From Sinorhizobium arboris LMG 14919 (GTDB lineage: Bacteria; Pseudomonadota; Alphaproteobacteria; Rhizobiales; Rhizobiaceae), in the NCBI RefSeq assembly GCF_000427465.1, contig NZ_ATYB01000008.1:868001-932000 (forward strand): a stretch of DNA of 64,000 nt, written 5' to 3'. Positions 2,478-24,573 of the stretch are shown one piece after another. Position 1 is the first letter of the stretch. The number at the start of each line of letters is the position of its first letter. A program made the translations under genes and the position numbers. Below the pieces are notes generated by a model. The model was not told the DNA's origin. It ran no database searches and saw nothing but the letters and a program-made list of their open reading frames with translations.

Positions 2478-2609
2478 GATCTCTCCTTGCCTGCAACTGC
2501 GCATCCGCGAAAGCAACCAGACGCGAGCCTCGTGCGCCCACCGATGGCTGGCATCCCGTCCGAGCCTGTCTGCACGCCAACCATCGCGAGTACCTGCGGA
2601 CTTCCCTTA

Positions 2610-2702
2610 CTGGCCTGGGCCAAACTATTACACCACTGGCACTGCTTGCGAGTTACGCGGCGAATTGAACAGCGGCAAGTTGGCCTTTGGTCCAACTATC
2701 AC
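2610..2702 (+). promoter_or_regulatory. two tandem copies of the TTGGnCC..TTGGTCCAACTATC motif
   Basis: The gap between the divergent genes (2478-2867) holds a 3' copy at 2680-2702, beginning TTGGCCTTTGGTCCAACTAT, and a weaker copy at 2610-2631 (TGGCCTGGGCCAAACTATTA). Their ACTAT(T/C)AC cores are 71 bp apart and in the same orientation, pointing to the HAD gene. Related copies lie before three other transcription units (4582-4605, 7263-7285, 24551-24573). The TTGGTCCAA core is an odd palindrome (TTGG-N-CCAA), as expected for a dimeric NarL/FixJ-type regulator. I infer binding by the regulator encoded at 4561-5226. No other clear feature is visible in this gap. Confidence 0.5.
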
Positions 2703-2867
2703 TGCTCCGAAAACAGCCGGATGATATTGTGGGCGGTCGCCTGACGAAGGAATGCCTCATGATGCTGCGTTTGGTCCGCGAGCCATACTCATAAGGCCCT
2801 CCCGGCGGCGTCCTCCCGCAAGCCACCTCCTTCCTTCTCCGGCAACGCCAGTCCAGAGAGATAGAAC

Positions 2868-3869
2868 ATGCTCGAGATCAGCCGCCGTTCGGCATTGCAA
2901 ATCGCCGCGTTCGCCGTTGCCGCCTCCTCGATACGCCCGGCACAGGCCGAAGACTCCGCGATCCTGCCCTCTTGGGCCGATGGTGAGGCGAAGGCAGGCA
3001 TCATGGATTTCGTGGCGGCGACGACGACGGAGGGCAGTTCCGATTTCGTCGAGCCGGCGGCGCGCATTGCGGTGTTCGACAACGACGGTACGCTTTGGGG
3101 CGAACAGCCCATGTATGTGCAACTCGCTTTCGCGCTTGACCGCGTCAAGCAGCTGGCGCCGCAGCATCCGGAATGGCAGACGACCGAACCCTTCAAATCG
3201 GTGCTCGCCGGAGACATGGCCGGTGTCGCGGCCAGCGGCGAGCGTGGGCTGCTCGAACTCGTCGCCGCCACCCACGCCGGCGTGTCCGCCGAGGAATTCG
3301 AAAAGATCGTTTCCGACTGGATCGCAAGTGCCCGGCACCCGGCGTCGGGCAAGCCCTATACCGCGCATATCTTCCAGCCGATGGTCGAACTGATCGACTA
3401 TTTGAAGACCAACCAGTTCGAAGTCTTCATCGTCTCGGGCGGCGGCGTGGAATTCATGCGTCCCTGGACCGAGCGCGTTTACGGTATCCCGCCGGAAAAC
3501 GTCGTCGGCTCCAGCATCAAGACGAAATACGAGCTGCGCGACGGCGTACCGGCGATCATGCGCCTGCCGGAGGTCGACTTCATCGACGACGGCCCCGGCA
3601 AGCCCGCCGGCATCAACAAGTTCATCGGCAGACGCCCGATTGCCGCCTTTGGAAATTCCGACGGGGACTTCGAAATGCTGGAATGGACGACCGCCGGTCC
3701 CGGACGCCGGTTCGGCCTTCTCGTCCATCACGACGATGCAGAGCGCGAAAATGCCTACGACCGCCAGTCCCACTTCGGCCGGCTGGCGCGCGGCCTCGAC
3801 GAGGCGTCCGCGCGCAGCTGGACGGTAGTCAGCATCAAGAACGACTGGAAGATCGTGTATCCGGAGTAA
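2868..3869 (+). CDS. secreted HAD-family phosphatase
   Basis: A 333-residue haloacid-dehalogenase-superfamily hydrolase. An export signal with a twin-arginine look (SRRSALQIAAFAVAASS) covers residues 1-27. Motif I is FDNDGTLW with nucleophile and acid D71/D73; motif II is IVSGGG; a Lys follows in SSIKTKYELRDG; motif IV is FGNSDGDFEML. This is the layout of phosphoserine-phosphatase-like HAD enzymes, so it probably dephosphorylates a small substrate in the periplasm. The substrate cannot be read from sequence. The gene stands alone on its strand, preceded by two copies of the proposed regulon motif and followed by a 291-bp gap. Its family assignment is secure; its role is not. Confidence 0.85.
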   Translation: MLEISRRSALQIAAFAVAASSIRPAQAEDSAILPSWADGEAKAGIMDFVAATTTEGSSDFVEPAARIAVFDNDGTLWGEQPMYVQLAFALDRVKQLAPQHPEWQTTEPFKSVLAGDMAGVAASGERGLLELVAATHAGVSAEEFEKIVSDWIASARHPASGKPYTAHIFQPMVELIDYLKTNQFEVFIVSGGGVEFMRPWTERVYGIPPENVVGSSIKTKYELRDGVPAIMRLPEVDFIDDGPGKPAGINKFIGRRPIAAFGNSDGDFEMLEWTTAGPGRRFGLLVHHDDAERENAYDRQSHFGRLARGLDEASARSWTVVSIKNDWKIVYPE

Positions 3870-4160
3870 ATCCGGGTCCCGCAGCGGCGCTCCTCTCCAG
3901 CCGACGAGCGCGAAACGGCCGCTCTCCTTTAATAGGGGCGGCAATGGGCGAGCTGATGACCCGCAAGCAGGAAGCCGGTATCCGCGTCGGACTCGACGAG
4001 TGGGCGACGTCATTCTACGAAGCCGACGCACCAGCAAGGGATGGTCAATCCGACGGTCGGCGCCGGGCAGATCTACAAGCTCAATGTTTCAGAGCATGTG
4101 CCGGTCGTCCAAGGTTCTTGGGCGTCGCCACAACCGAATGTGGGAAGTTAAGCGGTCGCT
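3870..4160 (+). other. gap with a possible 36-codon gene remnant
   Basis: No normal gene fits here. An ATG at 4041 directly after AGCAAGGG opens a 36-codon frame ending at 4151 (MVNPTVGAGQIYKLNVSEHV and onward). The frame is also open upstream of that ATG for several codons. The composition looks protein-like, so it could be the 3' end of a decayed gene; I do not recognise the family. Confidence 0.25.
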
Positions 4161-4553
4161 TCACCCTTGGAGGAGGCGCATGTCTTTGCCTCTCACCGCT
4201 TCGATTGCCGAGGTGAGCGAGTCGCGGGAGAGCGGCTTGTTGAGGAAGCCTGCTGCGCCGGCCCGCATGCAGCTCTCCCGCACGCTATCGTCATCTGCGC
4301 CCGTGATAACGATGACCGCAGCCTCGAAGCCACGGGCGCCAAGCTCGTGCAATATGTCGAGGCCATTCATGTTCGGCATGTGAAAATCGAGGAGAACGCA
4401 GGATGGCCTGGCATCTTCGAGATGCTGCAGAAACGCCTCGCCGGAGGCAAATGCCACCGGTTTCAAGGACAACGACAGCACGAGACGGCAGAGCGCGCGA
4501 CGAACCAGTTCGTCATCGTCCACGATCGCAACAATGCGCTGTTTCTCGCTCAT
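4161..4553 (-). CDS. stand-alone response-regulator receiver (CheY-like)
   Basis: A 130-residue single receiver domain with no output domain. The acidic pair D12/D13 (VDDDELV), phospho-acceptor D56 (VLLDFHMPNMNGLDIL), T84 (VITGADD) and K106 (LNKPLSR) are all present, so it should be phosphorylatable. It is the last gene of a kinase - FixJ-type regulator - receiver set, starting 7 bp after the upstream stop. A copy of the proposed regulon motif sits in the 3' end of the upstream gene only 29 bp before this start, so it may also have its own autoregulated promoter. It may be a phosphate sink or a second output for the kinase at 5236-7116. Confidence 0.85.
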   Translation of the reverse strand: MSEKQRIVAIVDDDELVRRALCRLVLSLSLKPVAFASGEAFLQHLEDARPSCVLLDFHMPNMNGLDILHELGARGFEAAVIVITGADDDSVRESCMRAGAAGFLNKPLSRDSLTSAIEAVRGKDMRLLQG

Positions 4554-4560
4554 CCATCAT

Positions 4561-5226
4561 TCATATATCATGGCCTTGTCTGATCGTAGTTGGACTTGGG
4601 CCCAATGCCTCACCTGCCGGCTCTGCAACCGCAACGAGGCGAACGAGGTCGGCGACCGTTCGCACGCCCAATTTCGCCATCATGCGACCGCGGTGAACTT
4701 TGATCGTCTTTTCCACCGTCCCGAGATCGGCAGCTATCTGCTTGTTCAGGAGCCCGGCCACGACGAGATGCATGACCTGCGTTTCGCGCGCCGTCAGGCT
4801 GTCGAGCCGCTTCAGCACGCTCGCCCTCTTCTCCTCCATTTTACGCCGGGAGCGTGAGAGCTGGCGCCCCACGTCCACGGCGGCAAGCAGCGCATCGGCC
4901 TCGACCGGCTTGGTAAGGAAGTCCACGGCCCCCGCTTTCATCGCCCGCACACTTGCCGGGATATCGCCCCTGCCCGTCAGAAAGACGATCGAGTGGCTTC
5001 CGCCTGCCGCGGCGAGCGCTTCCTGCACGCGGAAACCGTCGGAGTCCGGCAGGCTGAGGTCGAGGATGATGCAATCGGCCGTATCGAGATCGTCGGATGC
5101 CAGGAATGCTCGAGCGCTCTGATACACGGTCACGAAGTAACCCGAAGCCGAGAGCAGCCTCCTCAGCGACCGCAACACGAGCTCGTCGTCGTCGAGCAGC
5201 AATATTTTGCCGGCGCTTTCCCCCAT
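4561..5226 (-). CDS. FixJ/NarL-type response regulator with LuxR output
   Basis: A 221-residue two-domain regulator. The receiver (about 1-120) has D12/D13, phospho-acceptor D56 (CIILDLSLPDSDGF), T84 (FLTGRGD) and K106 (FLTKPVEAD). The C-terminal LuxR/FixJ helix-turn-helix (about 145-205) reads LTARETQVMHLVVAGLLNKQ followed by a KTIKVHRGRMMAKL recognition region. It starts 9 bp after the kinase gene stops, and the pair is a textbook kinase-regulator operon. It is the obvious candidate to bind the TTGGTCCAA motif found before several nearby units. Its input is probably the extracytoplasmic ligand sensed by the partner kinase. Confidence 0.9.
   Translation of the reverse strand: MGESAGKILLLDDDELVLRSLRRLLSASGYFVTVYQSARAFLASDDLDTADCIILDLSLPDSDGFRVQEALAAAGGSHSIVFLTGRGDIPASVRAMKAGAVDFLTKPVEADALLAAVDVGRQLSRSRRKMEEKRASVLKRLDSLTARETQVMHLVVAGLLNKQIAADLGTVEKTIKVHRGRMMAKLGVRTVADLVRLVAVAEPAGEALGPSPTTIRQGHDI
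4582..4605 (-). promoter_or_regulatory. regulon motif copy before the CheY-like gene
   Basis: Read on the minus strand the site is TTGGGCCCAAGTCCAACTAC, sharing GTCCAACTA with the copies at 2680-2702 and TTGG at its left end. It lies inside the last codons of the upstream regulator gene and points to the start at 4553. This is the most divergent left half of the set (TTGGGCCCAA is itself a perfect palindrome). Confidence 0.4.
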
Positions 5227-5235
5227 GATGCACCT

Positions 5236-7116
5236 CTAGGCTGAAGGTAGAATTACAACGGCCCTCGCCCCTCGCTTCACACCGTCGTCAAAGAATAACT
5301 TTCCTCCCTGCGCCTCGACGATGCTTCGACAGATTGCGAGGCCGAGGCCAAGTCCGCCCTTCTTCGAACTCACGAAGGGCTTGAACACTTCGCTCCGCAT
5401 CTCGACCGGGATGCCGGGTCCCATGTCCGCCACGGAAAGTTCACAATATCCATTCTTGCCGCTGTCGACCGCGATTTCAACCCGCCGTTGTCTCGGCGGG
5501 ATGTCTGCCATGGCGTCGGCCGCATTTACGAGCAGATTGAGGATCACCTGCTGGAGCTGCACGAGGTTTGCCTTGACCCGAACGCTCGTAAACTCGTCTT
5601 GTACCTCCACCTCGGTGCGCCGCGCCACCATCTCTGCACGGGCCAGAGCAACGGTCTGGCGGACCGCCTCGTTCAGGTCCAGGATTTCCTGCGTTGCTTC
5701 ACCCTTCAGCATCATGCTGCGCAATTGCGAAATGACCGAGGAGGCCCGTCTGTCGTCCGCCGCGATATCGTCGAAAATTGCACGAATCTCATCCATATCC
5801 GGGACCGGTTCCGTGGCGAGCTTCTGCCCGGCCTCGGCGTTGGCGAGAATGGACGTCAGCGGTTGCGTCAGTTCATGCGCGAAGGCGCCGGAAAGTTCGC
5901 CGAGTTGAGAGCGCCTCGAGAGATGGGCAAGCTCCACGCGTTCGGAGGCAAGAGTGGCTTCCAGTCTGCGGCCCCGCTGGTTTTGATAGACAAGCGCGGC
6001 GATCGTCAGCATCTGTGCCGCGATCACCAGCAGCGCCGCGCTGATGGGCACCCGGTAACGCTCCCAGGCGCTCGGCGAATAACTCAGGATTTCGGCATCT
6101 TCGGGTATCAAAACGTCATCGATTCCGAGACGCTGGACTTCACCCCAGTCGACGATCGCCGTCTCCCGGGCGGGCGTGGTCCGGGGCGCCGAAAGATCGC
6201 CGCGCATCATCTCCAGCGCCAGTGCCGCCATTTGCGCTCCGACCGACTGGAAGGTGCCCACATAGCCGCCCACGACATTTTTCCCGAAATAGGAACTATA
6301 AACCGTGTAGACCGGCGCGCCTGAGGCTTCCGCGATCGTCCTCGCCGCGTCCCGCGGGACGAATTTCGTGCCCTCCGCGTCCTGAAACACGGTGAGTATC
6401 ACCAGGGCTGCGTCGGAGGACAGTCCGGCGGCGGTCTTCCTAAAACCATCGATCGAAAGGCCGGACACATATTCGACATCAAGACCGGCGTAACGCTCTC
6501 CCAGAACGGCGAGCGCCGTCTCGCCCCATTTCCGGTCGAAGGGCGCCGAACCATACATGACCACCACCTTGCGCGCCCTCGGTTGAAGGCGGCTGGCCAG
6601 CTGGACGGTCTTGCCCAGATCGAAGCGGCTGACGACGCCCTTCACATCGGCCGGCAGGTTCTCGGCGACCGAACCCTCCGTGACCGCACCGAAGACCACG
6701 GGGACACCCTTGGCAAGACGCTCGCGCATCTCCAGCACAAACCGCAGGGCGCCCGGGCCGCCAGTGACCACGACGTTCAGATCCATTTGCCCGTATTTGG
6801 CCTCCAGAAACTCTGCAACACGGCGTGAATGATCCGTCGACGAAAATCGGAGAGTATCGAGATATTCGGTATAGTATTCGATGTGCTCAGCCGCGTTCGC
6901 ATCCATGTATTCGCCGAAACCCGACGCCAGTTGCCTGGCGGCGAGGAGCGTGCTTTCGCTTTCATAGATCAGGAGCACGCGTTTCGGATGATCGGCACGA
7001 CCTCCGAAGGCCCCCGCCAGCAGAACGAACAACGTAAGGATGACCGCTCGCGGTCGAATTCGCAGCACTATGCCCCCCTGGCCGTCCTCGATGCATTCAA
7101 CCAGCCGGTCCGCCAA
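5236..7116 (-). CDS. sensor histidine kinase with ABC-substrate-binding-like periplasmic domain
   Basis: 626 residues. A signal/anchor segment (about 20-40) is followed by an extracytoplasmic region of about 310 residues (KRVLLIYESESTLLAARQLA to WGEVQRLGIDDVLI) that resembles the ABC-transporter substrate-binding-like fold (PF04392 type). One transmembrane helix follows at about 357-378 (ISAALLVIAAQMLTIAALVY). The cytoplasmic kinase has the phospho-acceptor H414 in AFAHELTQPL, an N-box (NLLVNAADAM), a G1 box (DMGPGIP) and a G2 box (GLGLGLAI). The cytoplasmic His-kinase order resembles FixL-type kinases without the PAS domain. It heads the operon with the two response regulators and is divergent from the membrane-protein/AspT operon. 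It probably binds a small organic ligand directly; the ligand is unknown. Confidence 0.9.
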   Translation of the reverse strand: MADRLVECIEDGQGGIVLRIRPRAVILTLFVLLAGAFGGRADHPKRVLLIYESESTLLAARQLASGFGEYMDANAAEHIEYYTEYLDTLRFSSTDHSRRVAEFLEAKYGQMDLNVVVTGGPGALRFVLEMRERLAKGVPVVFGAVTEGSVAENLPADVKGVVSRFDLGKTVQLASRLQPRARKVVVMYGSAPFDRKWGETALAVLGERYAGLDVEYVSGLSIDGFRKTAAGLSSDAALVILTVFQDAEGTKFVPRDAARTIAEASGAPVYTVYSSYFGKNVVGGYVGTFQSVGAQMAALALEMMRGDLSAPRTTPARETAIVDWGEVQRLGIDDVLIPEDAEILSYSPSAWERYRVPISAALLVIAAQMLTIAALVYQNQRGRRLEATLASERVELAHLSRRSQLGELSGAFAHELTQPLTSILANAEAGQKLATEPVPDMDEIRAIFDDIAADDRRASSVISQLRSMMLKGEATQEILDLNEAVRQTVALARAEMVARRTEVEVQDEFTSVRVKANLVQLQQVILNLLVNAADAMADIPPRQRRVEIAVDSGKNGYCELSVADMGPGIPVEMRSEVFKPFVSSKKGGLGLGLAICRSIVEAQGGKLFFDDGVKRGARAVVILPSA

Positions 7117-7262
7117 TTATGACGGAATACTGATGTCAAGCCGGTGACAATGCAACGTTGTGCGGGTTGCATCACTCAATTGCAAGCCATCAGGATTTAG
7201 GGGTTCCCAACCGCCAGCGGACATCCGCCGCCGATCGTCGGCCAATATTCGGCGGGCTTGGG

Positions 7263-7285
7263 TTGGCCCTTGGTCCATCTATCGC
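7263..7285 (+). promoter_or_regulatory. regulon motif copy before the membrane-protein/AspT operon
   Basis: TTGGCCCTTGGTCCATCTAT is nearly identical to the 2680 copy (20 of 23 positions over the full site). It lies in the 247-bp gap between the kinase gene and the operon starting at 7364, pointing to the latter with 79 bp to its ATG. This spacing leaves room for a promoter immediately downstream of an activator site. Confidence 0.5.
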
Positions 7286-7363
7286 TCATACGGAAAATCG
7301 CTGATGGATAGATCGTGGGCTCGCCGGCATGGGAATGCCGGGGCCATGCTTGGGCAATGAGCT

Positions 7364-8596
7364 ATGGTGGTCATGAGCGTGAACGGCGTTACGCATCCGT
7401 CGACGGACAATGACGCGGTAACGGGATCTCCCTCTCCCGGGCTTGCCGACTTTCGTGCTTCGCATGGCGGACCGTTTTTCGAGCTGCAGGCGCAGTTGAA
7501 GCTCCTTCGAGAGAACACGCTTCGGTCGGGGATGAGGGCGACCCTTTTCGTCGCGCTGGCCTGGGGCGTACCCATCCTGCTCGGCATTCCGCGCAGCTTC
7601 TCCCTCGATCACAGCCAGAATGCCTATCTTGCGGACCCGGGAGTATGGGCGAAGTTCTTCATCGGCATTGGCGCTTTCATTCTGGCGGAGCAGCAGGTCG
7701 AGCGCGGTCTCAGAGCCCGACTGGCGCAGTTCGTGCGCGCTCCGATCATCGCGCCGACTGCGATGGACCAGGCTACGCTCGATCTGTCGCATGCGTTGCG
7801 CCAGCGCGATTCGCGCGGAGCGGAGCTCGTCTGCCTCGTGGTTGCGATATTCGCCGCAGCCCTGTCCTACCTCAACTTCCACACGGTCGACGTGTCTTCC
7901 TGGGCGGTCGAGCACCGGCCCGAAGGCAACAGGATCACTGCAGCCGGCTGGTGGTCGATCTGCGTCAGCCTTCCCCTTTTCGTCTTCCTCTTCCTGCGAG
8001 GCATGTGGCGGCACCTCGTCTGGGCGCAACTGCTGCGCCGCATCGCCAGGCTCGAGCTTCGACTCGTTGCGACGCATCCGGACGGCAAGGCGGGAATGGC
8101 CTTTCTCGCGCGATACCCGAACGCCTATGTCTTCTTTGTCTTCGGCATGAGTTCGGCAATTGCCGCGGCGATCGCGAAAAACCTCCTGCAGGAAGGGCTT
8201 TCGATGACGACGTTCAGCATGGTCATGACCGGCTGGCTGGCGATCGTCATCGCATTCTTCGCCTACCCGCTTTCGGCCTTCACCCCTCCGCTATCCCGCT
8301 TGAAGCAAAAGGGCCTGGCATTGCTCGACGCGCGGGCGACGCGTTACCACCGGGCGGCCGAACGCAAATCCGTGGGCCGAAACATCTTCGAGGACCCGAC
8401 GCCCGAGCCGGAGGAAGATATCCCCGATCCGAGCAAGCTTTACGACGCGACGCAGAAGCTCAAAACCGTTCTGGTCAGCCGAGAGGCCGTAGTGCCGGTG
8501 GCGGCAGCCGCGCTCATTCCCTTCGCCGTCGCCGGCGCAACGAAGCTGCCCTACAAGGAGGTCTTTTCCGTGATGAAGAAGCTGCTCCTGTTGTAA
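7364..8596 (+). CDS. integral membrane protein of unknown function
   Basis: 410 residues; I do not recognise the family. The Ser/Pro-rich N-terminus is cytoplasmic in appearance. Hydrophobic segments lie at about residues 58-75 (FVALAWGVPILLGI), 95-110, 165-180 (ELVCLVVAIFAAALSYL), 205-225 (WWSICVSLPLFVFLFLRG), 265-280 and 290-312. The segment PTPEPEEDIPDPSKLYDATQ is an acidic loop, and the end is again hydrophobic. There is an alternative in-frame ATG at 7373. It is the first gene after a copy of the proposed regulon motif and is followed at 122 bp by an AspT-type exchanger, so it may act in the same transport or stress response. Confidence 0.7.
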   Translation: MVVMSVNGVTHPSTDNDAVTGSPSPGLADFRASHGGPFFELQAQLKLLRENTLRSGMRATLFVALAWGVPILLGIPRSFSLDHSQNAYLADPGVWAKFFIGIGAFILAEQQVERGLRARLAQFVRAPIIAPTAMDQATLDLSHALRQRDSRGAELVCLVVAIFAAALSYLNFHTVDVSSWAVEHRPEGNRITAAGWWSICVSLPLFVFLFLRGMWRHLVWAQLLRRIARLELRLVATHPDGKAGMAFLARYPNAYVFFVFGMSSAIAAAIAKNLLQEGLSMTTFSMVMTGWLAIVIAFFAYPLSAFTPPLSRLKQKGLALLDARATRYHRAAERKSVGRNIFEDPTPEPEEDIPDPSKLYDATQKLKTVLVSREAVVPVAAAALIPFAVAGATKLPYKEVFSVMKKLLLL

Positions 8597-8718
8597 GGAG
8601 CGGTGTCGGGGTCAGTTCGACGCTCCTCAGGTGTATTGATCTTCTCACTCGTATAAATTGCCATCGCACCCAGTCTGCACGTTCGTGTTCTTTCAAATGG
8701 TTTTCAACGGGGGCACCA

Positions 8719-10407
8719 GTGACATTCATCCAGTCTCTTCTGCACCAGTCTCCCGAAATTGCGCTGTTTCTGGCGCTCGCGGGCGGGTATTGGATCGGCA
8801 AGTTCCAGTTCGGCAAGTTCCAGCTTGGCGGCGTGGCCGGTTCGCTCCTCGTTGCAGTCCTGATCAGCCAAGTCGGCGTGACCATCGACAACGGCGTCAA
8901 GGCCGTCCTGTTCGCGCTTTTCATTTATGCTGTCGGCTTCGAGAGCGGGCCCCAGTTCTTTCGTTCGCTCGGCCGGCAATCCATACGCGAAATCATCATG
9001 GCTGCGGTGCTGGCGATCACCGGCCTCCTCACCGTCGTCGTTCTTGCCCGCCTGTTCGGGCTCGACAAAGGCCTTGCCGCGGGTATTGCCGCCGGCGGCC
9101 TGACCCAGTCCGCGATCATCGGAACGGCCGGCGCAGCCATCGGGAAGCTCGGCCTTGCCGCCGAGGAGGCGCAACGGCTGCAGGCCAATGTCGCCATCGG
9201 CTATGCCGTCACTTACATTTTCGGCTCCTTCGGCGCGATCATCGTCTGCGTGAACATCCTCGAATGGTTTATGGGCCGCAGCATCCGCGACGAAGCCATC
9301 AAGGCGGAAGCGGAGATGCTGGCCGGTGCCAGCGTCTACGGCATCGGCGAACAACCTGCGCTGCCCATGCTGGTCGGTCGCCTTTTCAGCATCGAGAAGG
9401 CAGCCGGCCGGACAATCTCCGAACTCGAGGGTCGGGGACCGGCGGCAACGATTTCGATCGAACGGGTCAAACGCGGCGGAAAGCTCATCGGCAACGACCC
9501 GGGGCTGAAGCTTGAACCGGGCGACATCGTGCTTGTCGTCGGCCGGCGCGATGCCGTCGTTTCGGCTGCGCCGATACTCGGTGCCGAGCTTCAGTCCTCC
9601 GAAGGAATGGACGTCATCGTCGTCACACGCGACGTCGTCATCTCAAACCGCGATTTCGTCGGCCACACGGTGGCGGACATTCGCGAGAAGACCAGTCCTG
9701 AACTGAAGCATGGAATCTTCGTAATCGAAGTCAAGCGTGGCGGGCAGAAGCTACCCCTTGCCAAGGACACGCTGATTGCGGCCGGCGACGTGGTGACCCT
9801 CTACGGCACGACCGACGACGTCGCGCGCGTCGCAAAGCGCGTGGGCACGACCATCGTTCCGAGCGACAAGACCGACTTCGTCTATCACGGCCTCGGCCTG
9901 GTCTTCGGCCTTCTCATCGGTCTGATCGTGATCCGCCTCGGCTCGATACCGCTGACGCTTGGAAGCGGCGGCGGCGCGCTTCTTTCGGGCCTCGTCTTCG
10001 GTTGGCTGAGGACACGGAATATGGCCATCGGCAACATGCCGACCGGCGCTTCGACGCTTTTGCGGGACCTCGGCCTGGCCGGCTTCGTGGCAGTGGTCGG
10101 GCTGCAATCGGGGCAGCAGGCGGTAACCACCATCGCCGAACACGGCCTGTCGATCTTCCTGATCGGCGTGGTGGTCACCATCCTTCCGCTGCTCGTGACC
10201 ATGGCGGTGGGCAGATATCTGCTGCGCTATGACAATACGGCCATCTTTGCCGGCGCCCTGTCCGGCTCCCGCAGTGCCAATCCGGCCTTCGGCGAGGTTC
10301 TCGACAAGGCCGGCAACTCCGTTCCGACGGTCCCGTTCGCAATCACCTATGCCCTGGCGAACGTCTTCCTGACGCTGCTCGGGCCGCTGGTCGTCGCCTT
10401 TGCCTGA
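8719..10407 (+). CDS. AspT/YidE-type amino-acid exchanger, first copy
   Basis: 562 residues from a GTG start preceded by a GGGGG run, chosen because the protein then begins with the family's first membrane helix (PEIALFLALAGGYWIGKFQF). Two membrane bundles (about 10-165 and 385-560) flank a hydrophilic middle with two RCK_C/TrkA-C-like domains (SIERVKRGGKLIGNDPGLKL, IFVIEVKRGGQKLPLAKDTL). Paired GSGGGALLSGLVFGWLR and GSRSANPAFGEVLDKAGNSV motifs mark the aspartate:alanine exchanger family (TC 2.A.81). In Tetragenococcus AspT exchanges aspartate for alanine, making decarboxylation electrogenic. It lies 24 bp before the aspartate 4-decarboxylase gene, which strongly supports this substrate pair. 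Confidence 0.88.
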   Translation: MTFIQSLLHQSPEIALFLALAGGYWIGKFQFGKFQLGGVAGSLLVAVLISQVGVTIDNGVKAVLFALFIYAVGFESGPQFFRSLGRQSIREIIMAAVLAITGLLTVVVLARLFGLDKGLAAGIAAGGLTQSAIIGTAGAAIGKLGLAAEEAQRLQANVAIGYAVTYIFGSFGAIIVCVNILEWFMGRSIRDEAIKAEAEMLAGASVYGIGEQPALPMLVGRLFSIEKAAGRTISELEGRGPAATISIERVKRGGKLIGNDPGLKLEPGDIVLVVGRRDAVVSAAPILGAELQSSEGMDVIVVTRDVVISNRDFVGHTVADIREKTSPELKHGIFVIEVKRGGQKLPLAKDTLIAAGDVVTLYGTTDDVARVAKRVGTTIVPSDKTDFVYHGLGLVFGLLIGLIVIRLGSIPLTLGSGGGALLSGLVFGWLRTRNMAIGNMPTGASTLLRDLGLAGFVAVVGLQSGQQAVTTIAEHGLSIFLIGVVVTILPLLVTMAVGRYLLRYDNTAIFAGALSGSRSANPAFGEVLDKAGNSVPTVPFAITYALANVFLTLLGPLVVAFA

Positions 10408-10419
10408 TCTCGCTCATGA

Positions 10420-12018
<1,599 letters not shown>

Positions 12019-12144
12019 AAGGCTTCGGCAGGCGTGCGGGCGGCAACGTCGCCTTCGCGCGGATGAGTGAAAGCAGGCGCGGGAAATACGATCCCCGCGC
12101 CGATCCAGGATTACATCGAACGTCGATGCGCAACGGACTTGTCC

Positions 12145-13818
12145 ATGTCGTTTCTCACTGACCCGGTCATAGCGCTCTTCATATCGCTCGCGCTGGGCTA
12201 TCTCATAGGTCGGTTGAAGGTGGGTCCCGTCCAGCTAGGCGGGGTCTGCGGCACGCTTTTCGTCGCGCTGGCGCTTGGACAGCTCGGCGTGCGGATAGGC
12301 CCCGACCTCAAGGACGCCGCCTTCGCACTTTTCATCTACGCGCTCGGCTTCTCGGCCGGACCGCAATTCTTCGCCAATATCCGCGGCGGATGGCGATATG
12401 GGGTCTTCTCGATCATCGAGGTGGTCTGTGTCCTCCTGCTGCTGGCGATATCGATCCTCGTCTTCCGACTCGACGTGGGCACCGCCGCCGGCCTTTTTGC
12501 GGGGTCGGCAACCGAGTCGGCCGTCCTCGGAACAGCGTCGGAAGCGATTTCGCACCTTCCTCTGCCGCCTGGGGACATAGATCAGTTCCAGGCCAACATC
12601 GCGACCGCCTATAGTCTCACCTATCTCTTCGGCCTCATCGCCATCGTCATTTTCACGACCCAGATCGCGCCGCTGATCCTGAAGGCCGACCTCAGACAGG
12701 AGGCGCAGAAGCTCGCACGCAGGCTCGGATCGACCGAAGACGACGAGGACCAGGCGGAAGGCCTTCCCGTATTCGTCGGGCGCGCATTCCTGTCCGGTCC
12801 CGCCGCGGGCCGGACCGTCGGCGAATTCGAGAAAAGCCGGAACTTTGCCGTCGCTCTCGAACGCGTGAAGCGCGGCGGCGAAATTCTCGAAACGACGGCC
12901 GATTTCCTGCTGGAGCCGGACGACGTCGTCTTCGTCCGCGGACGCCGCAACGCAGTGATCGCGGTTCGCGACCGGCTGGGCGAAGAAGTGCCGGTTCCCC
13001 AGGAGACGAGTTTCGCTCTGGCGACCCGCGAGGTCGTACTCGTGCGCAAGGAGGCTTTCGGCCGCCAGATACGGCAATTGAGGCAAATGGCGGCGCCCGA
13101 GTTGCAGCGCGGCATATTCATCTCGAGCGTCCGGCGGATGGGACAGCACATCCCCGCCCTCTCCGGGACGATCCTCCAGCAAGGGGACGTCATCACGCTC
13201 TACGGCCCCGAAAAGGCGGTCGACAGGGCTGCAGCCGAACTCGGCAAGACGCTTCCCCCGGGAGAGAGGACCGATTTCATCTTTCTCGGGCTCGGCATCG
13301 TCGTCGGCCTCCTGATCGGCCATTTCAATCTCACGATCGGCGCGCTGGAGCTGACGCTCGGCTCGGGCGGCGGCGCCCTGATCTCCGGCCTTGCATTCGG
13401 TTGGCTCAACATGCGCAACCCGGCGCGTGCAAGCCTGCCGGTCGCCGCAGCGGATTTCGCGAAAGAGTTCGGTCTGGCAGCGTTCATCGCCGCGATCGGC
13501 CTCAGCGCCGGACCCGACGCCATAAAGCTCGTCATGCAATACGGCCTGATCCTGCCTGTCCTGGGCCTGCTCGTCTCCTTCATCCCGGCCTTCGTATCGT
13601 TGTTGGTCGGCTGGAAGCTGATGAAGATCGAAACGCCCATTCTCCTGGGCGTGATCGCCGGCCAGCATTGCAGCACGCCGACGATAAGCGCGCTCGTTTC
13701 CCAGGCGGGGAATTCTATCCCGGTGATCGGATATACGGTCACCTACGCGATCTCGAACGTATTGCTGCCGCTGATGGGACCTGTGGTGGTCGCCCTGGCC
13801 ATGGTGCTGGCAAGTTAA
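12145..13818 (+). CDS. AspT/YidE-type amino-acid exchanger, second copy
   Basis: 557 residues, a divergent paralogue of the protein at 8719-10407 with the same plan: N-terminal membrane bundle from DPVIALFISLALGYLIGR, two RCK_C-like domains (ALERVKRGGEILETTADFLL, GIFISSVRRMGQHIPALSGT), then a second bundle with GSGGGALISGLAFGWLN and QHCSTPTISALVSQAGNSIP. I chose the ATG at 12145 because it aligns with the paralogue's start; a GTG at 12067 is an alternative with a better ribosome binding site. The GQHCSTPT motif replaces the first copy's GSRSANPA, so substrate or kinetics may differ. Having two exchangers around one decarboxylase is unusual. Confidence 0.85.
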   Translation: MSFLTDPVIALFISLALGYLIGRLKVGPVQLGGVCGTLFVALALGQLGVRIGPDLKDAAFALFIYALGFSAGPQFFANIRGGWRYGVFSIIEVVCVLLLLAISILVFRLDVGTAAGLFAGSATESAVLGTASEAISHLPLPPGDIDQFQANIATAYSLTYLFGLIAIVIFTTQIAPLILKADLRQEAQKLARRLGSTEDDEDQAEGLPVFVGRAFLSGPAAGRTVGEFEKSRNFAVALERVKRGGEILETTADFLLEPDDVVFVRGRRNAVIAVRDRLGEEVPVPQETSFALATREVVLVRKEAFGRQIRQLRQMAAPELQRGIFISSVRRMGQHIPALSGTILQQGDVITLYGPEKAVDRAAAELGKTLPPGERTDFIFLGLGIVVGLLIGHFNLTIGALELTLGSGGGALISGLAFGWLNMRNPARASLPVAAADFAKEFGLAAFIAAIGLSAGPDAIKLVMQYGLILPVLGLLVSFIPAFVSLLVGWKLMKIETPILLGVIAGQHCSTPTISALVSQAGNSIPVIGYTVTYAISNVLLPLMGPVVVALAMVLAS

Positions 13819-13959
13819 CGCGCGTCAGGGAGCGCTGCGCAGCCTTGGCGCGATATTTTGTTCTGATGTAGCCTTGACGTGCGCCGCATCGTCGCGCCGT
13901 GGACCGAAGGAACGGGTGAATACGCAACACGCATACGCGAATGCACAGAGGGAAGCACG

Positions 13960-14931
13960 ATGGGAAATCGGGAAGACATCCAGGCGCTCGGCAAAAGGAT
14001 CGGGCAATCGATCATCGGTCAGGAAGCCATGATCGAGCGTCTGCTGCTCGGCCTGCTCGCAAATGGCCACCTTCTCGTCGAGGGTCTGCCCGGGCTTGCC
14101 AAGACCAGGGCGATCAAGAGCCTGGCCAAGAACCTCGAAGCGAGCCTGTCGCGCATCCAGTTCACCCCCGACCTGCTGCCCTCCGACATCACGGGCTCCG
14201 AAGTCTATTTCAGCGAGGGCGGCAAGGGCGAGTTCAAGTTCCAGCAGGGGCCGGTCTTCGCCAATCTGATCCTCGCCGACGAGATCAACCGCGCGCCGGC
14301 AAAGGTTCAGTCGGCATTGCTCGAGGCGATGGAAGAACGGCAGGTCACGGTCGGCGGGCAAAGCCATCCGCTGCCGCCGCTCTTCCTTGTCATGGCAACG
14401 CAGAACCCCATCGAGCAGGAGGGTACCTATCCCCTGCCGGAGGCTCAGCTCGACAGGTTCCTGATGCATGTCCGCGTCGACTACCCGGATGCGAATTCGG
14501 AAATCGCGATTATGGAGCTCGTCCGTTCCGAGGAAAAGGCGCCGCACGCCAGGAGCGCCGAGGCGCAGAGGCTCGCCGCGGACGTCGTGCTCGCCGCGCG
14601 CAGCGAAATAACCGAGGTCGCCGTCTCCAAAGCGGTCGAGGACTATATCGTCGCGCTCGTCATAGCGACGCGCTATCCTGACAGGATCGATCCGGAGCTC
14701 GCCAAATGGATTCAGGTCGGCGCCAGTCCGCGTGGCGTGATCGGGCTCGACAAGGTCTCGCGTGCACACGCCTGGTTGAAGGGTCGCGATTTCGTGACTC
14801 CGGACGACGTCCAGGCAATCGTGCACGACGTGTTCCGGCACCGGCTCGTGCTCTCCTATGAAGCCCATGCCGGCGGCATCACCGCGGACCAGGCCGTCGA
14901 CCGGATCGTGGAGAAAGTGGCGACCGCCTGA
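13960..14931 (+). CDS. MoxR-family AAA+ ATPase
   Basis: 323 residues. Walker A is GLPGLAKT (residues 43-50) and Walker B is LILADEINRA (D107/E108), followed by the MoxR-typical VQSALLEAMEERQVTVGG. A sensor 1 region is in MATQNPIEQEGTYPLPEAQL, and there is a C-terminal lid with GASPRGVIGL. MoxR ATPases act as chaperones with VWA/MIDAS partners. Here the gene opens a cluster with DUF58, DUF4381, two VWA proteins and a BatD-like protein, the standard MoxR-Bat layout. AGAGGGAAG before 13960 decides the start over an upstream in-frame candidate at 13879. Confidence 0.93.
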   Translation: MGNREDIQALGKRIGQSIIGQEAMIERLLLGLLANGHLLVEGLPGLAKTRAIKSLAKNLEASLSRIQFTPDLLPSDITGSEVYFSEGGKGEFKFQQGPVFANLILADEINRAPAKVQSALLEAMEERQVTVGGQSHPLPPLFLVMATQNPIEQEGTYPLPEAQLDRFLMHVRVDYPDANSEIAIMELVRSEEKAPHARSAEAQRLAADVVLAARSEITEVAVSKAVEDYIVALVIATRYPDRIDPELAKWIQVGASPRGVIGLDKVSRAHAWLKGRDFVTPDDVQAIVHDVFRHRLVLSYEAHAGGITADQAVDRIVEKVATA

Positions 14932-14946
14932 TTGGGAGGACTTGCG

Positions 14947-15942
14947 ATGGCAATTTCTCTGCCCGCATTCGGAAGAACGAAGGAGATCGTACGCCGGGCC
15001 GCAGGCGATACCGACGGCGCCTACGTTTCCGTCGACAATCTCGTCGCGCTGGAATCGATCGCCTCCGACCTGACGTTCCTGCGCAAGGCCCCCGTTCGCC
15101 GCTTCCTCGCCGGACGCCATGAATCGCGCATGCGCGGTCGTGGCCTAAGCTTCGAGGAGCTTCGGACCTACATGCCGGGAGACGACGTCCGTACGATAGA
15201 CTGGCGCGTCACCGCCCGCACCGGGCAGCCATTCGTGCGCGTCTACAACGAAGAGAAGGACCGCCCCGCCCTCATCATCGTCGACCAGCGCACCAACATG
15301 TTCTTCGGGAGCCGCCGGTCGATGAAATCGGTAGCGGCTGCCGAGGTCGCGGCGCTATGCGCCTGGCGCGTGATAGCGCTCGGCGACCGCGTCGGCGGCG
15401 TGGTCTTCAACGACACGAAACAGGAGGCCGTCCGGCCGCACCGGAGCCGCGCAGCGGTGATCCGCTTCGCCGAAGCGATTTCGGTCCAGAACAACGCGCT
15501 GAGCGCAAGCTCCGATGTCGAGAGGTCGCCCGGTCAGCTGAATGCGGTCCTCGCCAAGGTCGCGGCCTTGGCCCGGCACGACCATCTGATCATCGTCGTC
15601 AGCGATTTCGACGGGCACGGGCCGGCGACACGCGACCTTCTCTTGCGGATGTCGGTCGCAAACGACGTCATCGCCATACTCGTCTACGATCCGTTCCTCC
15701 TCGACCTGCCCCGGCAGGGCGAGATGGTCATCAGCGGTGGCGCGCTCCAGGCCGAGCTGCAGTTCGGCCGCAGCAATGTTCGCGACGCGGTAGACAGCTT
15801 CGCCCGTAACAGGGGCCGCGAACTGCTTTCGTGGCAGGAGGAAATGGGGCTGCCCATGCTGCCCGTTTCCGCGGCCGAGGAAGTGGCACCGCAGTTGCGC
15901 ACGCTTCTCGGTCAGCTCGCCTGGCGGCAAAGGAGACGATAG
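14947..15942 (+). CDS. DUF58 domain-containing protein
   Basis: 331 residues. The family hallmark is intact: GRGLSFEELRTYMPGDDVRT, then IDWRVTARTG, then VYNEEKDRPALIIVDQRTNM with a VWA-like fold behind it. Members are soluble partners of MoxR ATPases and are thought to help assemble the Bat-type membrane complex. GGGAGGACTT supports the ATG at 14947, 15 bp after the MoxR stop. It is followed with no gap by the DUF4381 gene, so translation is probably coupled. Confidence 0.92.
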   Translation: MAISLPAFGRTKEIVRRAAGDTDGAYVSVDNLVALESIASDLTFLRKAPVRRFLAGRHESRMRGRGLSFEELRTYMPGDDVRTIDWRVTARTGQPFVRVYNEEKDRPALIIVDQRTNMFFGSRRSMKSVAAAEVAALCAWRVIALGDRVGGVVFNDTKQEAVRPHRSRAAVIRFAEAISVQNNALSASSDVERSPGQLNAVLAKVAALARHDHLIIVVSDFDGHGPATRDLLLRMSVANDVIAILVYDPFLLDLPRQGEMVISGGALQAELQFGRSNVRDAVDSFARNRGRELLSWQEEMGLPMLPVSAAEEVAPQLRTLLGQLAWRQRRR

Positions 15943-16464
15943 ATGGATCCGACCCCCGCGCCCGACCCTATGCTCACCGCCACCTTGAGACAGATGGCCG
16001 ACATCGCCTTGCCGCCGCCCGTGTCGATGATGCCGGCCACATGGGGCTGGGCGGTTCTCTTCGCGGCCGCCGTGCTCGTCCTCGGCGGTTTCCTCTGGCG
16101 CTGGCTCCGCCAGCGTGCGCGCAACCGTTACCGGCGCGAGGCGCTTGCAGAACTCTCGAGACTGGAAAAAGCCATCGACCAGCCGGCCGGGCGCAGACAC
16201 GCCCTGCAGAGCCTGCCGGCGCTTCTCAAGCGCACGGCGCTCGCGGCCTGGCAGAGGGAAACGGTCGCCTCCCTCAGCGGAAAAGCATGGTCCGACTTCC
16301 TCCAGGCACATGCCGGCACGGCGAGGATCGACTCCGAAACCTATCGCTTCTTTGCCGAGGGCGAATACCGCCCGGCGGCGCTCGCCTCCACGGATGAGGC
16401 CAGGGCGCGCCAGAGGCTCGCGGCGGCACGCCAATGGATCGAGGCTCACGATGTACGTTCTTGA
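15943..16464 (+). CDS. DUF4381 domain-containing membrane protein
   Basis: 173 residues with one membrane helix at about 35-53 (WGWAVLFAAAVLVLGGFLWR) followed by a basic cytoplasmic tail (RWLRQRARNRYRREALAEL) and a helical domain containing WSDFLQAHAG and YRFFAEGEYRP. The proline-rich N-terminus (ALPPPVSMMPATWGWAV) and this tail are the DUF4381 pattern. It is found only with MoxR/Bat operons and is presumed to be a small subunit of that complex. The start directly abuts the DUF58 stop, and its 3' end overlaps the next gene by 14 bp. Confidence 0.85.
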   Translation: MDPTPAPDPMLTATLRQMADIALPPPVSMMPATWGWAVLFAAAVLVLGGFLWRWLRQRARNRYRREALAELSRLEKAIDQPAGRRHALQSLPALLKRTALAAWQRETVASLSGKAWSDFLQAHAGTARIDSETYRFFAEGEYRPAALASTDEARARQRLAAARQWIEAHDVRS

Positions 16465-17455
16465 CCATCCCTGGCTGCTCATGCTTCTGCCCGTGCCCTT
16501 TCTCGTCTGGTGGCTGCTGCCGCCATACCGGGAGCAAACGCCGGCCGTGCGCATCCCGTTTTTCGAGGACATCACCAAGGCAGCAGGCATCGGCCCGACG
16601 GAAGGCTCGGTGGTGCCGCGCGCCGACCTGCTTCAGAAAATCATCGCGCCGATCTGCTGGCTCCTGGTTCTGACGGCGCTCGCCCGCCCGCAATTCGTCG
16701 AGCCGCCGATCGAGAAGACCGAGCCCCAGCGCGACCTCATGCTCGCCCTCGACCTTTCACAATCGATGGACACCCGCGACTTCAGCGATCCGCAGGGCAA
16801 ACTCGAGGCAAGGGTCGCCGCGGTGAAGACGGTGGTTGCGGAGTTTGTCGACCGTCGTCCGCATGATCGCCTGGGCCTGATCGCCTTCGGCGACGCTCCC
16901 TACCCGCTCGTTCCCTTTACCATGGACCATGCTACCGTCCGAACCATGCTGACCGGTGCCTTGCCCGGCATGGCCGGCCCCCGCACCGCGCTGGGCGATG
17001 CGATCGGACTTTCGATCAAGCTGTTCCAGGAGAGCCAGGCGCCCGACAAGGTGCTCCTCGTTCTGACCGACGGCAACGACACCGCAAGCAAGATGCCGCC
17101 CGACAAGGCAGCCGAGATCGCGAGCCAGAACCACATCCGGATCCACACCATCGGCATCGGCGATCCCAATGCCGAAGGGGAGGAGAAGCTCGACACGGCA
17201 GCTCTGCAGAAGGTCGCCTCGGCGACCGGGGGCCGCTATTTCTTCGGCCAGGACCAGCAAGCGCTTGCCGATATCTACGCGCTGCTCGACAGCATCACGC
17301 CGGCGAACCAGAAGACGCTGAGCTGGCGGCCGCGCATCGAGCTGTTCCACTATCCGCTCGGTGCCGCCGTGCTCCTCGTGCTCGGCTATCACTGTCTGAT
17401 GTGGCTGCTGTCGATCCGTGCCGCCCACCGGCGCGAAAGCGAGGCAGACGCATGA
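16451..17455 (+). CDS. BatA-like VWA domain membrane protein
   Basis: 334 residues. N-terminal helices (LLMLLPVPFLVWWLLP at about 9-24; IIAPICWLLVLTAL at about 64-77) and a C-terminal helix (GAAVLLVLGYHCLMWLLS) flank a von Willebrand A domain. The MIDAS is complete: DLSQS at residues 101-105, a Thr in MAGPRTALGDAIG, and VLTDGNDT. RIPFFEDI in the linker is typical of aerotolerance (Bat) proteins. It should project the VWA domain into the periplasm and interact with the MoxR-driven complex. Its ATG lies within the upstream gene, and its stop overlaps the next start (ATGA). Confidence 0.92.
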   Translation: MYVLDHPWLLMLLPVPFLVWWLLPPYREQTPAVRIPFFEDITKAAGIGPTEGSVVPRADLLQKIIAPICWLLVLTALARPQFVEPPIEKTEPQRDLMLALDLSQSMDTRDFSDPQGKLEARVAAVKTVVAEFVDRRPHDRLGLIAFGDAPYPLVPFTMDHATVRTMLTGALPGMAGPRTALGDAIGLSIKLFQESQAPDKVLLVLTDGNDTASKMPPDKAAEIASQNHIRIHTIGIGDPNAEGEEKLDTAALQKVASATGGRYFFGQDQQALADIYALLDSITPANQKTLSWRPRIELFHYPLGAAVLLVLGYHCLMWLLSIRAAHRRESEADA

Positions 17456-20357: not shown

Positions 20358-20539
20358 CTTGAAGAATTCGAGGCCCCTTGCAGTCGATGTTAGTAACGGT
20401 TTCCGTCCCGCGAAGCACTGAAGCGCTCTGATCAGAACGTCCGTCTCCGATCAGGTATGCTACTGTAGGCAAACGGGGATTCGGGGAGATCCTGTCCTCG
20501 TCCCGCTCTTGCGCGCAAAATCAGGGGAGGTGGCGTTTG

Positions 20540-22519: not shown

Positions 22520-22542
22520 GCATTTTCCGGATTGCGCAAAAA

Positions 22543-22572
22543 GGGAAGGCGGGAGGAACCTCCCGCCTTCCC
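22543..22572 (+). terminator. 14-bp perfect stem-loop after the BCCT gene
   Basis: GGGAAGGCGGGAGG (22543-22556) and CCTCCCGCCTTCCC (22559-22572) are perfect complements separated by AA, 24 bp after the BCCT stop. There is no T run after it, so it may be a factor-assisted or bidirectional terminator between convergent genes. Confidence 0.6.
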
Positions 22573-22609
22573 AGGGACCGCACCTGGCTGGGACATGCGA
22601 TCCCTACTG

Positions 22610-22709
22610 CATGTTTCCTTTAATCGTAATCGATTGAAAGGCGAGAACATGCAGCAGATCAAAGTGCTACAGCGACTTTTGCGCGTCGGATAGGACGCGC
22701 GGCGCTGTG
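22610..22709 (+). repeat. rhizobial-type intergenic repeat, copy 1
   Basis: A palindromic element of about 100 bp containing GCATGTTTCCTTTAATCG, a central AGAACATGC and the segment GTGCTACAGCGACTTTTGCG followed by a GCGCGTC/GACGCGC hairpin. A nearly full second copy lies inverted at 59165-59262 and a half copy at 58041-58085. From memory this resembles the abundant intergenic mosaic repeats of Sinorhizobium; the exact class needs a database comparison. It occupies the gap between the convergent BCCT and sulfatase genes. Confidence 0.7.
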
Positions 22710-22800
22710 GAGCGCCGTGCGCCCGAATGGACGCAAAGGGCGCTCCAACGCTTCTGCGAGGGCTGCGCCTGTCCGAGCGCCGCCCTTCGGCCGGTCCTCA

Positions 22801-24459
22801 TCACCGTGGCGCCAGGCTCTCCAGCTCGCCAAGCCGCTTCAGCGCTGCCTGCTGTTTCAGCCAGGTGTAGCTGATGCCGCTGGCGTTCAGCGTGCTGCCC
22901 GCCTGATAGGGATACTGGTCGAAGTCCTCGAAGAACTCCTTGATCTTGCCCTGGATCGGGACAAGGAGCCACATGTTCCGAGCGATGAAGTCCATGGCCC
23001 CTCCCCCTTCTTTCGTACCCCGCTCATAGGGATCCATTCTCAGGTTTGCGATATTGGCCCAACTCGGCGTCTCGCGGGTTGCGGTAGCGATGTTGCCTTC
23101 ACTGTTGACTGCAAAGCTAAGCTTCCAGTCGTTCCACCGGATCGCATTCAGGTTTCCGCCCTGATCGAAATAGTAGACCGCTTCGCGAGGCGGCGTCGTT
23201 GCCTCACCGTTCAGGAGAGCCGTCAGGTCATAGCCGTCGAGATGGACCTTGAAGTTCTTGTCGCCGGACTGGAAGCCCGTCTTCATCTGCTCTTTGATGT
23301 CGGGGATGCCCGCGGCGGTCGCGAAGGTCGGCAGCCAGTCCATAAGCGTCACGGGATCGTTGATCTGGGTCCCCGGCTTCACGACCCCCGGCCAGCGCAC
23401 CATCATGGGAATGCGGAAGCCGCCTTCCCAGGTCGTGCCCTTTTCGCCGTGGAACATCGTCATGGCGCCGTCCGGCCACAGGGCGAGCTCAGCACCATTG
23501 TCGGTGGTGTAGAGCACGATCGTGTTTTCGGTGATGCCGAGATCGTCGAGCTGCTGCAGCAGCTGACCGACATGGCCGTCATGCTCCACCATGCCGTCCG
23601 CATGGATGCCCTTGCCCGTCTTGCCCATGGACTCCGGCTTCAGATGGGTGAAGACGTGCATGCGCGTCGAGTTGAACCAGCAGAAGAACGGCTTGTCGGC
23701 CTTGGCCTGGCGATCGATGAAGTCCTTCGCGGCAGCAAGGAACTCTTCGTCGACGGTCTCCATGCGCTTGGTGTTGAGCGCGCCGGTATCCTCGATCTTA
23801 CCATCCGCGCTGGACTTGATGACGCCGCGCGGCCCGAAGCTCTTCCGGAATTCGGGGTCCTTCGGATAGAAGTAGCCTTCCGGTTCCTCTTCGGCATTCA
23901 GGTGGTAGAGGTTGCCGAAGAACTCGTCGAAACCGTGGTTTGTCGGCAGGTGCTCGTCCCTGTCGCCCAGGTGGTTCTTGCCGAACTGGCCGGTTGCGTA
24001 TCCCTTGGACTTCAAGACGTCGGCAATCGTCGGCATCCAGTCCTGAATGCCGTGGGGGTCGCCGGGCATGCCGATCGTCAGCAGTCCCGTGCGAAACGGC
24101 TCCTGTCCGAGGATGAAGGATGCCCGCCCTGCGGTGCAGCTCTGCTGACCGTAGGCGTCGGTAAAGATGGCACCTTCCGACGCGATGCGGTCGATGTTCG
24201 GGGTGCGATACCCCATCAGGCCCATGGTATAGGCGCTGATCTGCGGGATGCCGATATCGTCGCCGAAGATGACGAGAATGTTCGGCGGTTTGCCGTTGCT
24301 TGCCGCCGGTTGCTCCTGAGCCTTTGCGCTACCAACGGCTACCGCCCCGTTTGCTGCAGCCGCAGCAGCAAGGATCGTGCCGCCCAGCAGGAGGCTCCGA
24401 CGATCTATAGAGATGGAAGCCTGGGCATTTTCACGCTTTTCAGCATCTGGAAGGCTCAT
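22801..24459 (-). CDS. Tat-exported arylsulfatase
   Basis: 552 residues. The twin-arginine signal (DRRSLLLGGTILAAAAAA, about 19-36) indicates export of a folded, modified enzyme. The formylglycine motif C-T-A-G-R starts at C108, in the context YGQQSCTAGRASFILGQEPF. Metal ligands D67/D68 (IFGDDIGI) and the DNGAE loop (YTTDNGAELALWPDG) are present, together with the GKNHLGD lysine/histidine segment. Length and motifs fit type I sulfatases. The natural sulfate ester is unknown. A regulon-motif copy 92 bp upstream of the start links it to the two-component system 17 kb away, and the neighbouring BCCT carrier suggests, weakly, a quaternary-ammonium sulfate. IS elements sit just upstream. Confidence 0.93.
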   Translation of the reverse strand: MSLPDAEKRENAQASISIDRRSLLLGGTILAAAAAANGAVAVGSAKAQEQPAASNGKPPNILVIFGDDIGIPQISAYTMGLMGYRTPNIDRIASEGAIFTDAYGQQSCTAGRASFILGQEPFRTGLLTIGMPGDPHGIQDWMPTIADVLKSKGYATGQFGKNHLGDRDEHLPTNHGFDEFFGNLYHLNAEEEPEGYFYPKDPEFRKSFGPRGVIKSSADGKIEDTGALNTKRMETVDEEFLAAAKDFIDRQAKADKPFFCWFNSTRMHVFTHLKPESMGKTGKGIHADGMVEHDGHVGQLLQQLDDLGITENTIVLYTTDNGAELALWPDGAMTMFHGEKGTTWEGGFRIPMMVRWPGVVKPGTQINDPVTLMDWLPTFATAAGIPDIKEQMKTGFQSGDKNFKVHLDGYDLTALLNGEATTPPREAVYYFDQGGNLNAIRWNDWKLSFAVNSEGNIATATRETPSWANIANLRMDPYERGTKEGGGAMDFIARNMWLLVPIQGKIKEFFEDFDQYPYQAGSTLNASGISYTWLKQQAALKRLGELESLAPR

Positions 24460-24550
24460 GCTTTACTCCTTGATTAAGCTGGTGCGTCCGGAGACATGCG
24501 GCTTCTGCCGCGTTGGAGCTTTCCAGATTATCGGCCGAAGCGGCCGGCGA

Positions 24551-24573
24551 GAGAAGTTGGACCAAGGGGCAAC
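24551..24573 (-). promoter_or_regulatory. regulon motif copy before the arylsulfatase gene
   Basis: On the minus strand the site is TTGCCCCTTGGTCCAACTTC, matching the 7263 copy at 15 of its first 18 positions. It points at the sulfatase start. The rest of the gap between the sulfatase (24459) and the IS element (about 24705) shows no gene; GAGTCGGTCAGCC and a T-rich stretch precede the IS. Confidence 0.5.

Follow-up and report, generated by a model that had tools for sequence, protein, structure and literature searches.

The described two-component systems closest to the one reported here are StyS/StyR of Pseudomonas, FixL/FixJ of rhizobia and the tetrathionate system TtrS/TtrR. According to the StyR study, phosphorylated StyR activates from a site, STY2, at about -40, which is drawn as inverted arrows, and StyR also has a part in repression from further sites of its promoter (PMC2442086). 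Here we describe a 64,000-bp stretch of Sinorhizobium arboris LMG 14919 DNA (contig NZ_ATYB01000008.1, positions 868,001 to 932,000; hereafter the window, in which coordinates are counted from the first letter). It holds four copies of an inverted repeat, boxes A to D, that very probably form the operator of a FixJ/StyR-type response regulator encoded among them, as judged by sequence comparison.

The regulator belongs to the FixJ/NarL-type two-domain response regulators, with both the receiver and the GerE helix-turn-helix domain present. StyR (1yio/1zn2) is its nearest solved relative (E 1.5e-47) and shares the receiver and GerE domains. The position of the site may be similar: a -10-like hexamer would put the centre of the 16-bp repeat described here at about -44.5. 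The recognition helices are not the same, StyR having AEVTVKVHR (E-V) and the regulator VEKTIKVHR (residues 171-179, with E172-K173), and the StyR targets, styrene catabolism, also differ from those found here. The ends of the StyR box presumably differ from those of the present boxes, the letters of the StyR box not having been found in the literature searched. FixJ (5xso), which has the same two-domain architecture, was the best NCBIfam match of the regulator, at 169.7 bits against a cut-off of 255 that excludes it from the FixJ equivalog; its helix, SPRT, has P-R at the residues equivalent to E172-K173. TtrR was the second NCBIfam match of the regulator and the adjoining kinase matched TtrS, both below the curated cut-offs; unlike in TtrS/TtrR, no tetrathionate reductase was found among the window-region genes scanned. 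Among the papers listed by the literature searches, none describing this operator, regulon or system was found, judged by titles and abstract starts. The regulon and its operator thus appear to be undescribed, with a known regulator family and a DNA specificity that looks new on comparison of sequences. The regulator, its kinase and the boxes are as follows.

2680-2699, plus strand: operator box A, TTGGCCTTTGGTCCAACTAT, before the HAD phosphatase gene; kept in 5 aligned relatives
4561-5226, minus strand: FixJ/StyR-type response regulator, Pfam Response_reg (PF00072) and GerE (PF00196) above cut-offs
4586-4605, minus strand: operator box C, TTGGGCCCAAGTCCAACTAC, for the CheY-like receiver gene; at the regulator-CheY junction in other genera too
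5236-7068, minus strand: sensor histidine kinase, 610-aa form with a GTG start
7263-7282, plus strand: operator box B, TTGGCCCTTGGTCCATCTAT, before the membrane-protein/AspT/AsdA/AspT genes; kept in Sinorhizobium relatives
24553-24572, minus strand: operator box D, TTGCCCCTTGGTCCAACTTC, for the Tat arylsulfatase gene; boxes also precede the orthologous sulfatase

The conserved core of the boxes is a 16-bp inverted repeat, TTGGNCC-NN-GGNCCAA. In all four, a CTAY-like end faces the start codon, which lies 168 nt away for the HAD phosphatase, 32 for the CheY-like receiver, 81 for the membrane protein and 93 nt for the sulfatase. Box C is situated within the last codons, at the 3' end, of the regulator gene, and the regulator and kinase genes stand in the middle of the set. 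The sequence-only reading of this DNA had listed five sites, each directed towards a start codon, and four of them (2680, 7263 and, on the minus strand, 4586 and 24553) were recovered in place with that orientation, at 32-168 nt. The fifth, a weak copy at 2610-2631, was discarded: it gave no ungapped window match at up to 5/20 mismatches and is not conserved in five aligned relatives that do keep the neighbouring box at 2680. The shared core had also been drawn wrongly, as a TTGG-N-CCAA palindrome, which the CheY box does not contain.

A search of the window for the 16-mer with up to 3 mismatches returned 5 matches at 4 places against 0.96 expected, and a count of at least 5 was seen in 1/100 shuffles. 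When up to 3 mismatches were allowed, the 20-mer TTGGNCCNWGGTCCAACTAT matched the genome of 6.85 Mb only at boxes A to D (4 matches, all within 22 kb); a reversed-pattern control likewise gave 4 genome matches, and the weight therefore rests on clustering and conservation, not on the number of matches. Since the pattern was derived from the four boxes, the search of the own genome is partly circular, which the tests in other genera are not. Four further one-mismatch matches to the 16-mer on contig C4 (L005-L008) were rejected, as they are crossed by open frames of more than 150 codons (in three cases frames of 592 to 643 codons with a GC3 of 0.72-0.82); they appear to be coding sequence that matches by chance, which is less clear for L008.

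Co-occurrence of box and regulator was assessed in 200 related genomes from 155 genera, the own genome included, with a strict site defined as the 20-mer with at most 1 mismatch and a regulator match as E <= 1e-47. The strict site was present in 8/200 genomes and the regulator match in 11/200; all 8 were among the 11, and none of the 189 genomes lacking a regulator match had a strict site. Of the three genomes with a regulator match and no strict site, G159 and G198 have a repeat with two mismatches where the regulator and CheY genes meet; the third is G017, described below. Within the genus, a near full-length regulator match of at least 81% was found in 5/33 genomes, which are the genus members with the motif. 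Across a sample of the order the 20-mer occurred in 3/397 genomes; with its AACTAY tail it is too strict outside the family, and the repeat alone, scored out of 12, was therefore used for wider tests.

These covered 93 regulator loci outside the Sinorhizobium set; control palindromes were matched to the repeat in geometry and GC content, and repeats were counted within 3 kb. Among the 28 loci with a regulator identity of at least 47%, the repeat reached at least 11/12 in 9 and 12/12 in 4; 451 control palindromes at the same loci gave means of 0.73 and 0.02, respectively, and one of them reached 9, none 4. The repeat was not enriched at the 65 loci below 47% identity (2 and 0 against means of 1.71 and 0.09 for 150 controls). 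Splitting the loci by recognition helix was sharper than splitting by identity: a repeat of at least 11/12 accompanied 11/29 regulators with E-K at residues 172-173 and 0/64 others (Fisher 5.7e-7, an optimistic value because the loci are related), a count of 11 that was reached by 0/451 control palindromes. The E-K loci with the repeat include Lysobacter (L009) and, beyond Pseudomonadota, one locus each in Acidobacteriota (Acidobacteria, L040), Gemmatimonadota (Gemmatimonadetes, L028) and Thermodesulfobacteriota (Desulfobacterales, L077).

A later set came from genus g122, in which 166 genomes were searched and 13 had a match, yielding 13 loci from 12 genomes new to the analysis. Every one of the 13 regulators is E-K. 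A repeat of at least 11/12 was found within 3 kb in 12/13 loci and a perfect one in 9/13, against means of 0.31 and 0.02 and maxima of 3 and 2 for 200 controls. The sole locus below this level (L196) has 10/12 at the junction and a perfect box more than 5 kb off. At the regulator-CheY junction or the regulator 3' end, at least 11/12 was reached in 11/13 loci, the best repeat of L193 (11/12) lying elsewhere. A homologue of FGE, the sulfatase maturase, is encoded in 9/13 loci, and in 9/9 of these a repeat of at least 11/12 precedes the start of the match by about 60-285 nt. As the set comprises one genus, with two loci from one genome and both helix and box already known from G288, it is new and not independent. 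Of 4096 half-sites of this geometry, TTGGnCC ranked first in the diverse and the later set alike.

That the repeats belong to a mobile element, or are chance palindromes in GC-rich DNA, is extremely improbable. The copies do cluster in 22 kb, and a transposase-like open reading frame (ORF; 24705-25799, plus strand), which we take to be of the IS110 type, starts 130-200 bp from box D. Against this, the boxes have only about 20 bp in common and their flanks differ, the four window boxes face start codons and their places recur across genera, and control palindromes of like composition fell short (0/451 and 0/200).

A different LuxR/NarL-type regulator might read the boxes, with the local FixJ-type gene merely one of its targets. 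The genome has 26 GerE matches, and one of the others, the NarL-like L202, also has an E-K-T helix; this is a point in favour of such a regulator. The helix of L202 reads HEKTVKHHM, however, and EKTIKVHR is found only in the 4561-5226 regulator; two other proteins of the genome (L200 and L201) have FixJ-like SPRTVEVHR helices. Because the box follows the 4561-5226 type of regulator across the 200 genomes, and its helix residues in the 93 and 13 loci, we regard another regulator as very unlikely. The confinement of the boxes to one cluster, their co-occurrence with the regulator, their recurrence, the tracking of the helix and the later set all point instead to a shared operator of the local regulator, as the sequence-only reading had proposed.

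The position of the boxes relative to a possible promoter was examined in 29 promoters chosen by the analyst, near-identical S. meliloti copies having been left out. The best average score of a -10-like hexamer (2.45) was obtained at offset 21 downstream of the 20-mer; shuffled promoters, which keep base composition only, gave a mean maximum of 1.50, and 0/2000 were as good as observed. Two such hexamers in the window, both at offset 21 from the 20-mer, are

2720-2725, plus strand: GATGAT, belonging to box A
24527-24532, minus strand: GATAAT, belonging to box D

If the hexamer occupies -12 to -7, the repeat is centred at about -44.5, and on our reading the CTAY end then stands at the place of the -35 hexamer. 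Class II activators usually bind at such a position. With the hexamer best at one offset, and the box centre consequently in that position, it is unlikely that the regulator binds the boxes and represses the genes behind them. The precedent for repression is StyR, which also takes part in it from further promoter sites (PMC2442086).

Several observations weigh against an operator that is read in this way by the local regulator. Sinorhizobium contributes 11/29 promoters (the window, S. medicae and S. meliloti ABS7), the shuffles ignore relatedness, and the -10-like hexamer does not stand out everywhere, box B being the example. Weaker half-sites occur, namely CCAT in box B and TTTCCCC before the sulfatase of S. 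medicae and G022, and the CheY box of G095 is four mismatches off the first pattern. No repeat of at least 11/12 was found within 3 kb in 18/29 E-K loci; 10/12 versions among them are TCGGACCTTGGTCCTA in L012 and L016 and TAGGACCAAGGTCCGA in L042. The E-K label requires 10 changes on the tree compared with 36 for shuffled labels, and this relatedness makes the shuffle values optimistic as well. In G017, the regulator match is broken up and the best repeat nearby is 8/12 within 5 kb; on the same contig (L145 3784), a 10/12 repeat lies between a second kinase (36% to that of the window) and a sulfatase, with a regulator alongside. S. meliloti ABS7 (L151 20105) keeps a box-A-like site with no HAD gene in the 30 kb read. 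Finally, one of the 397 genomes (G368, L167 1558) has a perfect 20-mer with no relative of the window proteins in the 12 kb read, possibly a chance occurrence.

The genes behind the boxes and a further part of the recurrent neighbourhood are listed below.

2868-3869, plus strand: HAD phosphatase, Pfam PF12710, Tat-like N-terminus
4161-4553, minus strand: CheY-like single receiver domain, by Pfam; same place in other genera, a recurrent target
7364-8596, plus strand: membrane protein, first gene after box B, no Pfam match
8596-10407, plus strand: AspT-type antiporter, first copy, PF06826 in frame 7645-10407, exact start approximate
10432-12018, plus strand: AsdA aspartate 4-decarboxylase, NCBIfam TIGR03801 above cut-off
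12067-13818, plus strand: AspT aspartate-alanine antiporter, second copy, NCBIfam TIGR03802 above cut-off
13879-17455, plus strand: MoxR ATPase, DUF58, DUF4381 and VWA genes, all in the orientation of the AspT/AsdA genes and part of the recurrent neighbourhood
22801-24459, minus strand: Tat arylsulfatase, Pfam PF00884

The arylsulfatase has a formylglycine-type motif, C-T-A-G-R, with Cys108; with its PF00884 domain and the C-x-(P/A)-x-R motif it is a formylglycine-dependent (type I) sulfatase. An FGE homologue is encoded about 1.1 kb to the left of the window. CheY and sulfatase (or HAD-sulfatase) genes also have boxes in front of them in G082, G095, G098, G159, G198 and G288, which represent five other genera of the order (G159, G198 and G288 being more distant), and also on plasmids of E. 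adhaerens, S. meliloti and S. medicae. Behind the box of G288 come an FGE gene and two sulfatases. In G082 a DUF1254/DUF1214 gene pair and the sulfatase are preceded by boxes (L133 9454 and 12708) that agree in all 20 bp and resemble each other in the sequence downstream. On this comparison, the recurrent targets would be the CheY-like receiver and the sulfatase, often with the maturase and the HAD phosphatase.

The target list of the sequence-only reading, and its expectation of sites confined to the same gene families across rhizobia, are largely borne out for CheY and sulfatase. The aspartate/alanine genes are a different matter: G012, G013 and G014 retain the box at 7263, and no intact AspT/AsdA set was found in them, so AspT/AsdA is not a constant target and looks like a variable Sinorhizobium addition. 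Proton balance by aspartate decarboxylation is our guess as to how these genes joined a sulfatase response. The two copies that had been assigned to the HAD phosphatase reduce to one box. In S. medicae (L150 16116-19150), a second sulfatase, about 52% to that of the window, follows the box-A promoter, and HAD has a separate box. The promoter segments of S. medicae and the window (2680-2867) align, and no sulfatase separates box A from HAD in the window. The HAD gene of the window thus appears to sit behind the former promoter of a second sulfatase, which is still present in S. medicae.

Other genes were seen near the boxes. To the left of box A lies a divergent 302-codon ORF (1608-2516, minus strand) without a Pfam match, and relatives have frames of similar length at this place; box A could act on both sides. 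The annotation has autotransporter genes close to the box-A-like site of ABS7. In G095 (L134 9493), a box has a TRAP gene on one side and, on the other, a DUF3141 gene followed by a phosphotransacetylase gene; on an Eleftheria plasmid with an E-K regulator (L153 1-4146), DUF3141, phosphate acetyltransferase, acetate kinase and FabI genes are found about 11 kb off.

The histidine kinase adjoins the regulator, and the same pair occurs in relatives. In the kinase frame 5236-7116, HATPase_c scored above and HisKA just below cut-off, and the N-terminal part gave no Pfam match. Two relatives of the kinase (P0018 and P0022, 48-49% identity) carry PF04392, ABC_sub_bind, in this part, which suggests that the sensor is a binding-protein-like periplasmic part. 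A signal met by this part would lead to phosphorylation of the regulator, a dimer of which would then bind the 16-bp TTGGNCC-NN-GGNCCAA near -44.5, next to the -35 region, the transcription starts being placed by the position of the -10-like hexamer. The bound regulator would activate, and not repress, the promoter of the exported formylglycine-type sulfatase; the promoters of the HAD phosphatase and the CheY-like receiver would be activated likewise, the latter protein acting perhaps as a feedback or phosphate-sink partner. In the Sinorhizobium lineage, the membrane protein and AspT/AsdA genes would also be activated.

A wider reading, which we favour with less assurance than the operator itself, is that an old E-K branch of FixJ/StyR-type regulators keeps TTGGNCC-NN-GGNCCAA across phyla. 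In Rhizobiales this branch would govern a sulfatase/maturase/HAD module via the binding-protein-like kinase sensor, and E-R at the helix would mark a switch of specificity. E-R regulators at L033, L034 and L039 stand beside sulfatases, with best repeats of 9/12, 9/12 and 8/12 within 5 kb; they fall in the E-K half of the tree, by a weak joining branch (86/48). None of the 4 E-R loci has the box, and an E-R operator was not found from three loci. If the wider reading is true, these sulfatase-linked regulators without the box would be a natural switch of DNA specificity, and the contrast between E-K and E-R a direct handle on the recognition code. Two-component systems of no known function would gain an operator and a gene set, along with a specificity residue that lends itself to testing, and the operator would allow the regulon to be predicted wherever another genome carries an E-K regulator. 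The control of sulfatases in soil and plant-associated bacteria would thereby be tied to one regulator branch.

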